A stretch of 38,200 bases of DNA, taken from the NCBI GenBank assembly GCA_947587605.1, contig CANPYB010000003.1, forward strand, positions 1 to 38,200, given 5' to 3'. How positions within the stretch are numbered: the first letter of the stretch is position 1; every line of letters begins with the position of its first letter. The DNA is from Candidatus Gastranaerophilales bacterium (lineage in GTDB: Bacteria; Cyanobacteriota; Vampirovibrionia; Gastranaerophilales; Gastranaerophilaceae). The position numbers were made by a program, and so were the translations under genes. Below are positions 1,090 to 6,286 of the stretch, in pieces. The notes below the pieces were generated by a model that was given only the letters and a program-made list of their open reading frames with translations, was not told the DNA's origin and ran no database searches.

Positions 1090-1118
1090 AAAAAAGCGCT
1101 TATAATAAGCGCTTTTTT
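1090..1118. terminator. Bidirectional intrinsic terminator between convergent genes
   Basis: Perfect 13-bp stem AAAAAAGCGCTTA / TAAGCGCTTTTTT with TAA loop; U-tract on either strand; lies between + GH57 and - vWA genes. Confidence 0.85.
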
Positions 1119-1860
1119 ATTTATTAATTATCATGCCTTGAACTTCTTTTTTAAGATTTAATGAGTCTTGCAAGCTGTTTTTTAACTCGGCTGCGGTATT
1201 CGCAGTATAAAATTTGCCCGATGTAACCAGTGCAACACATTTTAGCTGATTATTAGCGTCATCATCGCCTACTGCAAGAGCAATAACGTCAATTTGTATA
1301 TCATCTCTGTATTTCATAAGCTCAATAACAAAATCACAAGGACTTTCGTCGCAATTTTCGCCGCCGTCACTGATTAAAACAATTCTTTTTTTGCCGCTTG
1401 TATCACCAAAATCAAAGAAAGCTGCCTGTTTGAGCGAATAAGTAATCGGAGTCCAGCCGACAGCATTTATTGATGTCAGCTTTGAATAAATATTTGCCGC
1501 ATTATTTTGCAAAATCGGTGCAATAAGTTGAGAGGCACTGCAGCTCTGCTTAGGGGTAAAACCTGTTCTGTGCCCGTATACTCGAAGCCCGACATTTGCG
1601 TTTTCCGGAATCATTTGCAATATTTCTTTCATTGTAGAAAGTGCAGCATCAAGTTTTGTTGTATGTCCGAGCCGTTCATTCATACTGTTTGAAAAATCGA
1701 CTATAAAAAGAATTTTATCTTTGTCAGAAACCGAAGTATTTTTTGAATAATCATAAGTTGACGGTGTTGTATAGTTATAGTTATTAATTGTTGTTTCACA
1801 ATAACAGCAGCTACACGCCAGCATTAGAGTTGTTAATAATAATATAATATTTTTTTTCAT
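1117..1860 (-). CDS. Exported von Willebrand factor A (vWA) domain protein, possible lipoprotein
   Basis: MIDAS-like DFSNSMNE (DxSxS) and DGGENCDESPCDF; N-terminal signal MKKNIILLLTTLMLACSCCYC. ATG at 1860 gives a proper signal peptide; the listed start at 1893 is probably too far upstream. Confidence 0.8.
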   Translation of the reverse strand: MKKNIILLLTTLMLACSCCYCETTINNYNYTTPSTYDYSKNTSVSDKDKILFIVDFSNSMNERLGHTTKLDAALSTMKEILQMIPENANVGLRVYGHRTGFTPKQSCSASQLIAPILQNNAANIYSKLTSINAVGWTPITYSLKQAAFFDFGDTSGKKRIVLISDGGENCDESPCDFVIELMKYRDDIQIDVIALAVGDDDANNQLKCVALVTSGKFYTANTAAELKNSLQDSLNLKKEVQGMIINK

Positions 1861-1939
1861 ATTTACCCGTAAACTTTTACTAAATCTTAGCAAAAAATAA
1901 AAGAACTGTCATTACCCTTTTTGTATTATACAAAAAGTT

Positions 1940-2695
1940 TTACTCGGCGAATTCAAGAAGATAAGACTTGTATAAAATTGTGTTTTCCGTTTTGGGGGCG
2001 ATAATTTGAGGATTTTCTAATTTTATCGGTGTTGGTTCCGGGTGCGGATTATTAAATATGTAATTTACTGACGGATTAATATCATCAGGTTTTTTTACAT
2101 TAATAAATCTGCCGTGTGTAGAGTCTGTTAAACATTGCAGCAACGCGGCATCGATACTGTCAACACCGATAGCAACAATATCTATAATTAAGTCATTCCT
2201 TTTCAGCATTTGTTTTTTTATAAAACTGCAAGGGTCTCCGTTGCAATTTTCGTACCCGTCTGTAACAAGTATTATGCGTTTTATGTCTGTTGAAGCATGA
2301 AAATCATTTTGTAGTGCAGTTTGTAAAACATATTGAATTGGCGACATACCGCTTGGAACGATATTGGGAAGATTAGCTCTTATATTTGCTCTGTTGTGAG
2401 GGTTTATATCGTTTAAGCGTTCTGTTGCATGGCATAATGTATCTGTCGTAACAATTCTGTTTAATCTCATTTTCTCCGGATTTATACCGATTGTTCTTAA
2501 ACCTATAAACTCATTATCGTCAAGATTTTCAAGAATTTTATTAACAGCCTGCTTTGCATACTTAAACTTCATTCCGTACTTTAAAGGTTCATACATGCTT
2601 GCTGATTGGTCAAGTATAATTAGTGTTTCTTTGGAAGCAACTGCTGACAGTGTACATAAAAATAAACAAATTAATATCAAAAATAATTTTTTCAT
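1940..2695 (-). CDS. Exported vWA domain protein, paralogue of the adjacent gene
   Basis: Signal peptide MKKLFLILICLFLCTLSAVAS; DQSASMYE MIDAS motif; TDGYENCNGDPCSF matches the DGGENCDESPCDF block of the neighbour. Confidence 0.8.
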   Translation of the reverse strand: MKKLFLILICLFLCTLSAVASKETLIILDQSASMYEPLKYGMKFKYAKQAVNKILENLDDNEFIGLRTIGINPEKMRLNRIVTTDTLCHATERLNDINPHNRANIRANLPNIVPSGMSPIQYVLQTALQNDFHASTDIKRIILVTDGYENCNGDPCSFIKKQMLKRNDLIIDIVAIGVDSIDAALLQCLTDSTHGRFINVKKPDDINPSVNYIFNNPHPEPTPIKLENPQIIAPKTENTILYKSYLLEFAE

Positions 2696-3128: not shown

Positions 3129-4265
3129 TTATTTGTATTTGGGATTAATTGATATCCATTGATATGATTGCTTTTCGTCGCTATCAGGTATATCTATTAA
3201 AAATGTACCGCCAAACCTGCCGCGTCCGAATGTAACATAGCCTTGTTTTTCCAGATTACTAAGTGATTTTCTGATTGTATTTGTACTAACATCAAACATT
3301 TCAGCCAATTTTTGCATTGGCGGAAGTTTATCTCCTGCTTTACAGTTTGATTTAATATGAGATATAAGTTTTTCTTCCGTTCTTTGGTACGAATAAGAAA
3401 CAGCGTCGGTTGCCTTTGCAAATATTGAATTTTCTTTTAAAGGTTCATAAAGATTATTTTCAGTTTTTCTTGAAAGTATTGTTCCGTATCTTCCGCGTCT
3501 TGTTATTAAAATACCTTGAAGTGTTAATGCTTTAATACAATCATGTATTGTTTTAACACTGACATTAAACTCTTTAGCAAGCGCATCATGTGCGGGAATC
3601 TTTTCACCAATTTCAAAATTTTTCATAAAATAAGATTTAAGTTTATCTGTAATTTTACTGACAAGAGTATCTGTTTCAATTTTATCCGAATAATCTTTTT
3701 CATAGTCGTTTAAAAAGGGAACTGATTTTAATATCCAATTAGAATCACTTCCTCGTTTTTGCATTGATTCAATGATACCGTCTTTTAAAAGAAATTCATA
3801 AGCAAGTCTTGCGGTATTTTGAGAAATTCCTATTTCTTCTGACATTTTTCTGGCTGACGGTATTTTTTTACCGGGTTTAAGATTATTGTTAATTATATAC
3901 TTTTTTATTGCGGTAATAGCCTTTTCACGTTTAGATGTTGATTTGAAGAATTCCGAAGGGTTTGTCACATTGGAAATCATAGTTCCGAGTCTTTGTTTTG
4001 ATTTTAGGTATCCCTCATCCTCAATATACCTGATAGCATTTTGAACCGTACCTATACTTACGCCAAGATGATTAGATATTTCAGCTTTACTTGGCAGTAT
4101 ATCATTTTCTTTAACCGCTTTATTTCTTACTGCCGACAATATCCAGTTAATAATCCATTTTTTTATTAATGAGTCTTTTGAGTCAAAGGACGACTCAAAA
4201 TCAGGAATTTCAACGGGCAGTTCTTTTATATCAATCTTTCTCTGACTTTTTAATTCAACAGTCAT
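3129..4265 (-). CDS. Transcriptional regulator with four tandem GntR-like winged-helix domains
   Basis: Four repeats of the GntR pattern 'LPs...la..lgVS..Tv..ai..Le..Gyl....r.Gt': DILPSKAEISNHLGVSIGTVQNAIRYIEDEGYL; KIPSARKMSEEIGISQNTARLAYEFLLKDGII; KIPAHDALAKEFNVSVKTIHDCIKALTLQGIL; KLPPMQKLAEMFDVSTNTIRKSLSNLEKQGYV. RBS-like AGGA before ATG at 4265. Confidence 0.85.
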   Translation of the reverse strand: MTVELKSQRKIDIKELPVEIPDFESSFDSKDSLIKKWIINWILSAVRNKAVKENDILPSKAEISNHLGVSIGTVQNAIRYIEDEGYLKSKQRLGTMISNVTNPSEFFKSTSKREKAITAIKKYIINNNLKPGKKIPSARKMSEEIGISQNTARLAYEFLLKDGIIESMQKRGSDSNWILKSVPFLNDYEKDYSDKIETDTLVSKITDKLKSYFMKNFEIGEKIPAHDALAKEFNVSVKTIHDCIKALTLQGILITRRGRYGTILSRKTENNLYEPLKENSIFAKATDAVSYSYQRTEEKLISHIKSNCKAGDKLPPMQKLAEMFDVSTNTIRKSLSNLEKQGYVTFGRGRFGGTFLIDIPDSDEKQSYQWISINPKYK

Positions 4266-4364
4266 AAATCCTCCGATTTTTTTATTTATTATAAGTCAGA
4301 TTAAGATTTTTTTTGTTATTTTTATTTTAATTTTTAATATTTTGTAACTTTAAATATAAAATTA

Positions 4365-5024
4365 CTAAACAAGACCTTCTTTAATTGCTTTAACTGCAGC
4401 TTGAGTTCTGTCATCTACGAGCATTTTTTGAATAATATTGCATACGTGAGCTTTTGCCGTATGCTCGCTTATACAAAGTTCTTGTGCTATATCGTTATTT
4501 GATTTTCCGTCAACAAGAAGTTTCAGAACTTCGTATTCACGCTGAGTAAGATTTGCATGTGTATTTCTAAACATAGCTCTTGAAGTTTGTTTTTGAGGAA
4601 TAATTTTGTCTGACTTTTCACGAAGCAGAGGAACAACTTTAGGGTCGAGCCACATTGCGCCGTCATTAACGCTTTTAACAATATTTAAAAGCATTTCGGT
4701 GTTAATATCCTTTATAACATAGGCGAATACCCCCATTGACAAAACCTTTATTATTTCATCCTCATTATTATGTGAGGATAATACAATTAATTTTGACTCA
4801 CAGTTGTTATCATTAAGCTCTTTAATAACCTTAATCCCGCTCATATCGGGTAATCCGAGGTCAAGCAATATGACATCAGGCTTATATAATACGGCTTTAG
4901 AGACGGCATCCTTGCCGTTTTCAGCTTCTGCTATAACTTCAAAGCCTTCTGTATCATCAAACAGTGTCTTTATTCCCACTCTAATCAGCTTGTGGTCTTC
5001 AACAAGCATTAATTTTATCGGCAT
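4365..5024 (-). CDS. NarL/LuxR-family response regulator (REC + HTH)
   Basis: MPIKLMLVEDHKLIRVGIKTLF, DVILLDLGLPDMSG, LTQREYEVLKLLVDGKSNNDIAQELCISEHTAKAHVCNIIQKM. The listed start at 5042 is TTG; ATG at 5024 is preceded by GGAGGA. Confidence 0.9.
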   Translation of the reverse strand: MPIKLMLVEDHKLIRVGIKTLFDDTEGFEVIAEAENGKDAVSKAVLYKPDVILLDLGLPDMSGIKVIKELNDNNCESKLIVLSSHNNEDEIIKVLSMGVFAYVIKDINTEMLLNIVKSVNDGAMWLDPKVVPLLREKSDKIIPQKQTSRAMFRNTHANLTQREYEVLKLLVDGKSNNDIAQELCISEHTAKAHVCNIIQKMLVDDRTQAAVKAIKEGLV

Positions 5025-5161
5025 AATAACATTTTCCTCCAATACTATATTAGTTTTATGATTTATGTTATTAATCCCTCTTTAATAATTTAATGTGTAC
5101 AATTAAAATTTAAAAAAAAATTTTTTAAAAAATTTTAATTTTTCTTTATGTCATTTTTTAA

Positions 5162-5198: not shown

Positions 5199-5257
5199 GA
5201 ACTATATTATAATTACATATCTATAAGAAATAAACAAATTTGAGTTATAATAATTTC

Positions 5258-6286
5258 ATGATAGGGATAGAGTTTTACAGAACAGATGATAAATCCGTAG
5301 GATTATATGATAATAATGCAGGTGATATATACCATTCAAAAAGCGGGGCATTAAAAGAAGCATTTGAAAAGTTCATTAATCCGTCGTTATTAAACAAAAA
5401 ATCAAAAAATAAAGATGAGATAAATATTCTCGATATATGCAGCGGGGTAGGATACAACTTAAAAGCGGCATTATTGTCAACAGATAAAAAATGTAAAACA
5501 ACAATTGATTGTTTAGACACTAACATAGGGTTAATAAAATTATAGCCATTCATACAAGACGGAATAGACGATATTGATTTAAAAATATATTTACTTTCAG
5601 AAGTAATAAAAGAAGTCAATTTTGATAATAGTTTTCTTAATGAAATTTTTTGTATTGATACCTCATTTTTATGCGACGATATGAGGCGTTTTATTGAGTT
5701 TTTATTAACCGAGGGGTACTTAACTAAGGGTTGGGTTTTAAATCGTTCGTTTTTACATAATATATATTATAATTATATTTCTAATAACATGAATTATACT
5801 AAAAATTGCAATAAATACAATAATATAAATATACGATATTTTATGGGCGACGCAAGACATACTCTTAAATCTGTTAATCTCGTATATGATATAGTTTTTC
5901 TTGACGCTTTTTCTCCTCAAAAAGACCCCGTTCTTTGGACAATAGATTTTTTATCCTTAATTAAATCTAAATTGAATGATAAATCTGTTATTGTATCTTA
6001 TTCAAAGTCTACTCCTTTTAGAAGTGCATTAATTGAATTAGGTTTTTGTGTCGGGAAAACAATTATTGATAATAAAGACATGGGTACTGTTGCTTCATTT
6101 GATAATTCCCTAATTTTAAATCCTCTTAGTGATTATGATTATAAATTACTTTTAACAAGAACAGCTATCCCTTACAAAGATACAAGTTTATCATTGTCTG
6201 CTGAACAAATAATAATTAACAGAAATAATGATATGCTTTCTTCTGACAGAATATCCATGACTCAATTTCTAAAGAAATATTATTAA
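5258..6286 (+). pseudogene. MnmC/MnmD-type SAM-dependent methyltransferase (Methyltransf_30/DUF752) interrupted by one in-frame TAG
   Basis: ORFs 5240-5545 and 5681-6286 are in the same frame, and the frame is open from 5546 onward. N half: SVGLYDNNAGDIYHSKSGALKEAFEKFI, ILDICSGVGYNLKAAL. C half: YFMGDARHTLKSVNLVYDIVFLDAFSPQKDPVLWTIDFLSLI. Only TAG at 5543-5545 interrupts. Confidence 0.75.

Follow-up and report, generated by a model that had tools for sequence, protein, structure and literature searches.

GntR proteins make up one of the largest families of bacterial regulators, and their textbook plan is one DNA-binding unit joined to a sensor in a dimeric protein. Across the superfamily a dimer binds a palindromic NyGTNxACNy operator; members of the MocR/PdxR subfamily carry a PLP-dependent aminotransferase-like domain, and those of the PlmA/YtrA subfamily consist of a single winged helix-turn-helix (wHTH) with a short helical tail. 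The known members combine one wHTH with a C-terminal effector or oligomerisation domain (PMC4494728; PMC5882156). Dimerisation usually serves to reach two half-sites, and MocR-type regulators can use direct-repeat operators (PMC5320631; PMC4494728). Repetition of the GntR domain is not unique to the protein analyzed here, since tandem proteins with two PF00392 units per chain (WP_275538955.1 and WP_200402142.1) exist on Streptomyces plasmids:

L147, 1399-2160: Streptomyces plasmid tandem two-GntR protein, beside plasmid lexA
L148, 1432-2253: Streptomyces plasmid tandem two-GntR protein, beside plasmid lexA

These proteins resemble ours in their tandem arrangement but hold two units instead of four, belong to actinobacterial plasmids and show only local identity (28-29% over about a third of our protein).

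The window, meaning the whole analyzed stretch of 38,200 nucleotides from a Candidatus Gastranaerophilales bacterium, encodes the four-GntR protein in a single 378-aa ORF that runs from 4265 to 3129 on the minus strand. The strand had been left unstated in the sequence-only reading; on the plus strand, the frame that begins at 3129 is full of stops. The ATG is located at 4265 and is preceded by a GGAGG ribosome-binding site. The features of the gene are as follows:

3129-4265, minus strand: gene of the four-GntR-domain protein, 378 aa (P0001), supported by the ORF call, Pfam and full-length homologs
3972-4157, minus strand: winged helix 1, residues ~37-98, recognition helix SIGTVQNAIR and wing KQRLGT (PF00392 at 3975-4136, 33.0 bits; AlphaFold2 H30-47, H60-67, H71-84, E87-90, E94-97)
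3726-3932, minus strand: winged helix 2, residues ~112-180, recognition helix SQNTARLAYE and a divergent wing (PF00392 at 3750-3926, 39.7 bits; AlphaFold2)
3468-3665, minus strand: winged helix 3, residues ~201-266, recognition helix VSVKTIHD and wing RRGRYGT (PF00392 at 3489-3653, 32.3 bits; AlphaFold2)
3192-3395, minus strand: winged helix 4, residues ~291-358, recognition helix VSTNTIRK and wing GRGRFGGT (PF00392 at 3216-3389, 52.1 bits; AlphaFold2)
4270-4274, minus strand: ribosome-binding site GGAGG, from the sequence

A search of Pfam-A matched PF00392 (GntR) to four separate stretches of the protein with an overall E-value of 9.7e-43. All four copies (32-52 bits) score above the curated cut-off of 27 bits, and by this domain the chain belongs to the GntR superfamily. 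AlphaFold2 was run on two alignments, the first of 51 homologs from the order and the second of 77 from the class, and returned four winged-helix units of the order H-H-H-E-E (residues 30-97, 112-179, 201-264 and 285/292-356), whose block pLDDT values were mostly 80-92. The mean pLDDT was 77.9 and 81.4 and the pTM 0.44 and 0.52 for the two alignments; because of these pTM values, the individual wHTH units are credible and the placement of the four relative to each other is not confidently predicted. The count of four wHTH units in the sequence-only reading was therefore correct and far beyond chance, and the possibility that only one or two of them were real, which was tested by profile search and AlphaFold2, did not hold. 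Of the proposed GRxGT-type wings, those of copies 3 and 4 are clear and that of copy 1 takes the form KQxxGT, whereas a different wing, RGSDSNW, is seen in copy 2. The absence of an effector domain also stood, as only HTH-type families were credibly matched: neither Pfam-A nor further family models gave a credible match to a family of another type, and no domain matched the N-terminal ~29 residues, the linkers or the C-terminal ~20 residues. In the family scan of 77 homologs, HTH-type families dominated in all 77 and no effector-domain family was among the matches, nor was a dimerisation domain recognisable in the four-GntR protein. Equivalog models of the GntR subfamilies scored far under their cut-offs, and a PLP-dependent aminotransferase-like domain is absent (142 bits for the PdxR model against a cut-off of 320). 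The architecture is thus four winged helices of GntR type on one chain, without a sensor. Each unit shares the PF00392 fold with the GntR superfamily (FadR, HutC, MocR, YtrA, AraR, PlmA), but the classical subfamilies have one wHTH with a C-terminal effector domain or tail, and PlmA/YtrA proteins one wHTH with a short helical tail, where this protein has four wHTH and no such domain.

Comparison with solved structures brought up a different series of winged helices. SelB is a translation factor with a GTPase that binds SECIS RNA, and its C-terminal part likewise contains four winged helices in a row. The best whole-chain PDB match of our protein was the SelB C-terminal fragment 1lva (E=1.8e-6, TM 0.17-0.23), with 2uwm also matched, and the DasR-RNA aptamer structure 9i0v provides a GntR protein that binds RNA in vitro. 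The tandem units could accordingly bind RNA as in SelB, but this reading is highly improbable. Because the TM-score is very low and the rmsd high, only the series of modules matches SelB, and the sequence relation extends no further than the wHTH fold. The units are GntR by sequence, the nearest solved single domains are those of GntR proteins such as YydK, LutR, AraR and BusR, no PDB relative was found outside GntR, and the 378 residues contain no GTPase domain.

The conservation of the chain was analyzed in an alignment of 81 dereplicated sequences from the whole class. Over its first half, the recognition helix shows entropies of 0.67, 1.13, 0.67 and 0.68 bits in D1 to D4, compared with a chain mean of 1.85 bits, and the wings of D1, D3 and D4 reach 1.02, 1.07 and 0.98 bits against the same mean. 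The wing of D2 is unlike the others in its conservation (2.18 bits). Each of the four domains is basic (pI 9.2-10.1). The recognition helices and wings are the most conserved parts, the copy 2 wing excepted, and we infer from this pattern that selection has kept each of the four units for contact with DNA. The copies were described as strongly divergent, which agrees with their pairwise identity of 23-36% and can be specified as an early divergence with each copy separately conserved. In the domain tree, the copies from positions 1, 2 and 3 fall into separate clades by position and those from position 4 almost do so, which places the origin of the four-unit plan before the radiation. A sister pairing of D1 with D3 and of D2 with D4, hinted at by FastTree, was dropped as the AU test does not separate the three pairings (p 0.47-0.52). 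Outside every wHTH, a C-terminal tail of the form WxxINPxY (residues 368-378; window 3129-3164, minus strand) is conserved; its W370 is nearly invariant, and N374 is invariant in the first alignment.

Vampirovibrionia are a non-photosynthetic sister class of the cyanobacteria and include common gut residents. A homolog profile detected full-scale homologs (a tally of table rows with E below 1e-50) in about 290 of 382 genomes of the class. Single-copy, full-length homologs were found in about 275 of the 286 sampled Gastranaerophilales genomes (about 96%); the remaining Vampirovibrionia contributed 15 genomes with a full-scale homolog, from families f9, f14 and f15, and the profile gave weak matches or none in families f8 and f10-f13. 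Outside the class, a phylum-wide sample of Cyanobacteriota yielded no match at E 1e-20. In a scan of named genomes, whose patterns reach close relatives only, nearly all relatives were 'Candidatus Gastranaerophilales' MAGs. Four PF00392 matches within one ORF were present in 32/32 genomes from 25 genera, with some of the weaker matches in divergent genera falling under the cut-off. The homologs of genus g31 (L103, L104, L111, L112) are shortened to about 334-349 aa, and all four GntR units are still present in the two of its genomes that were scanned, G236 and G214. With a horizontally moving origin in mind, homologs of the four-domain form were sought in phages, viral contigs and plasmids, and none was found. 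The gene is an ancient single-copy gene of Vampirovibrionia. Cyanobacterial single-domain GntR regulators such as PlmA share the phylum and the GntR wHTH with it, but in the genomes checked, both of Vampirovibrionia families without the four-GntR protein and of other Cyanobacteriota, each GntR ORF holds one GntR unit. A literature search, which covered few subscription journals, found no published description of a four-GntR protein and gave no support to the idea that the architecture had already been widely described. The four-GntR plan is a variation within the GntR superfamily that is undescribed in the literature searched, its distribution having been surveyed within the Cyanobacteriota, and a conserved, four-headed and sensor-free member departs from the textbook GntR plan.

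In 30 of the 32 genomes (exceptions G082 and G227) the protein was the sole GntR protein over the cut-off. It is conceivable, though rather unlikely, that in Vampirovibrionia it serves as an ancient and mostly universal master or architectural regulator, a monomer with four covalently linked GntR heads that needs neither dimerisation nor a ligand and substitutes for all other GntR regulators in most genomes. The reading we favor, at a probability of roughly 0.5, is that four wHTH on one chain, with neither a ligand-binding nor a known dimerisation domain, constitute an orphan DNA-binding regulator of Vampirovibrionia that would bind a long composite operator and regulate its own gene. Because the units are covalently linked, one molecule could occupy several half-sites at once and would read such an operator without dimerisation. 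The protein offers a simple, testable case of how covalently linked winged helices read a composite operator, and one of the few concrete entry points to gene regulation in this class.

The region upstream of the gene contains the following candidate sites:

4334-4351, minus strand: candidate operator box 1, AAAGTTACAAAATATTAA, conserved across the genus, its exact pattern occurring once in the own genome
4311-4318, minus strand: candidate operator box 2, TAACAAAA, 29 bp from box 1 and at the -35 position, from the upstream alignment
4288-4293, minus strand: putative -10 element TATAAT, part of a conserved TTATAAT at a fixed distance from box 2

The upstream alignment of the genus and two nearer relatives reads AAAGTWACRAAWTATTAA, about 20 variable bases, TAACAAAA, 16 bases and TTATAAT; the wider pattern is AAAGTWACRAAWTATTAA followed 29-30 bp downstream by TARCAAAA, just before the -10 element. 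Boxes 1 and 2 have a TWAC-RAA core in common and lie 29 bp apart, and in other genera where both fit the same pattern the spacing is again 29-30 bp; the element, laid out as these two boxes, also contains GTWAC. No TTGACA-like sequence was found in the window at the -35 position taken by box 2, which would fit an activated or autoregulated promoter. The exact 18-mer of box 1 occurs once in the own genome, at the four-GntR gene, and at this gene in 15 of 19 congeneric genomes sampled; two extra matches, in G006 and G012, concern unrelated genes, one match being internal to its gene and the other lying at the gene's end. With up to two mismatches, the promoter core TTGATGTTTTTTTAYAAATAGTRTA was detected solely upstream of the four-GntR gene (10 genomes of nine other genera). 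TARCAAWW was present within 200 bp of the start in 57/82 lineages compared with 64/490 control starts, an enrichment given without a formal p-value as the 82 include related lineages. Upstream of the most divergent homologs, in the most divergent genera, a recognisable element is missing. A consensus RNA fold of three sequences over the promoter was weak and consisted largely of AT pairing. The element is essentially private to the four-GntR gene, and its near-uniqueness favors, as a minimum, autoregulation through recognition of a specific sequence. Most likely the protein would bind its own promoter at the AAAGTWACRAAWTATTAA box and the TARCAAAA box 29-30 bp downstream, before TATAAT, and would control it with either sign. 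The long composite operator that had been proposed gains indirect support from this conserved, gene-private element with two boxes 29-30 bp apart. The protein may also act as a monomer, loop DNA or serve as an architectural factor, as was suggested along with it.

The same private element would also suit a simple autoregulator, that is, an ordinary dimeric GntR-type repressor or activator of few genes in which the extra wHTH are redundant. GntR proteins generally bind as dimers (PMC5320631), and dimerisation may occur through short segments outside the wHTHs. We consider this reading quite improbable: a dimerisation domain is unrecognisable, and as all four units, recognition helices included, are conserved class-wide and present in 32/32 genomes, no unit looks redundant.

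A regulon was searched for with three patterns. The full 18-base box with up to two mismatches was not enriched (14 matches against 20 for the reversed-pattern control), nor was a promoter-type pattern AACAAAA-N16-18-TATAAT (6 against 5), and all matches to the 12-base core except that in the own promoter were inside ORFs, three of them in one repetitive adhesin-like gene. No regulon beyond the own gene emerged. Other targets probably exist, but they would have to use sites that escape a search with the full operator. Nucleoid-associated proteins are abundant and bind genome-wide with low specificity, and the four units could similarly bridge or bend DNA at many loose AT-rich sites, of which the promoter element would be one strong example. 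The single-copy, near-universal presence in the order, the basic domains, the absent effector domain, the lack of a clear regulon and a gene context unconserved beyond the genus and near relatives are all compatible with such an architectural protein. This explanation is nevertheless unlikely. A protein that reads specific sequences would be expected to conserve its recognition helices, and their residues do rank with the best conserved of the chain; the promoter element, moreover, is private to the gene and of high specificity.

In its genus, the four-GntR gene follows a NarL/LuxR-type response regulator gene and precedes vWA-domain genes. A vWA gene sometimes remains close in near relatives, and the neighbors differ in more distant genomes. 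That a single-copy regulator keeps its sequence while its neighbors change suggests a function independent of a local operon. The response regulator (window 4365-5042, minus strand) is directly upstream, and this synteny is genus-wide and does not extend beyond. Another protein could recognise the promoter element, for example this regulator, whose gene is the codirectional upstream neighbor within the genus, and the four-GntR protein would then act elsewhere. Such an arrangement is distinctly unlikely. TARCAAAA and the -10 element persist in other genera where the response regulator gene is not adjacent, which speaks against this regulator and for the preferred reading of autoregulation by the four-GntR protein; a third protein may still read the element. 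Downstream of the four-GntR gene, two secreted-looking vWA-domain proteins are encoded (window 1117-2695, minus strand); relatives have one to three copies, of which one is well conserved and the rest diverge fast. An MnmC-like methyltransferase region (PF05430; window 5240-6286, plus strand) is apparently split into two ORFs, possibly by a frameshift, and its orientation relative to the neighbors varies between relatives.
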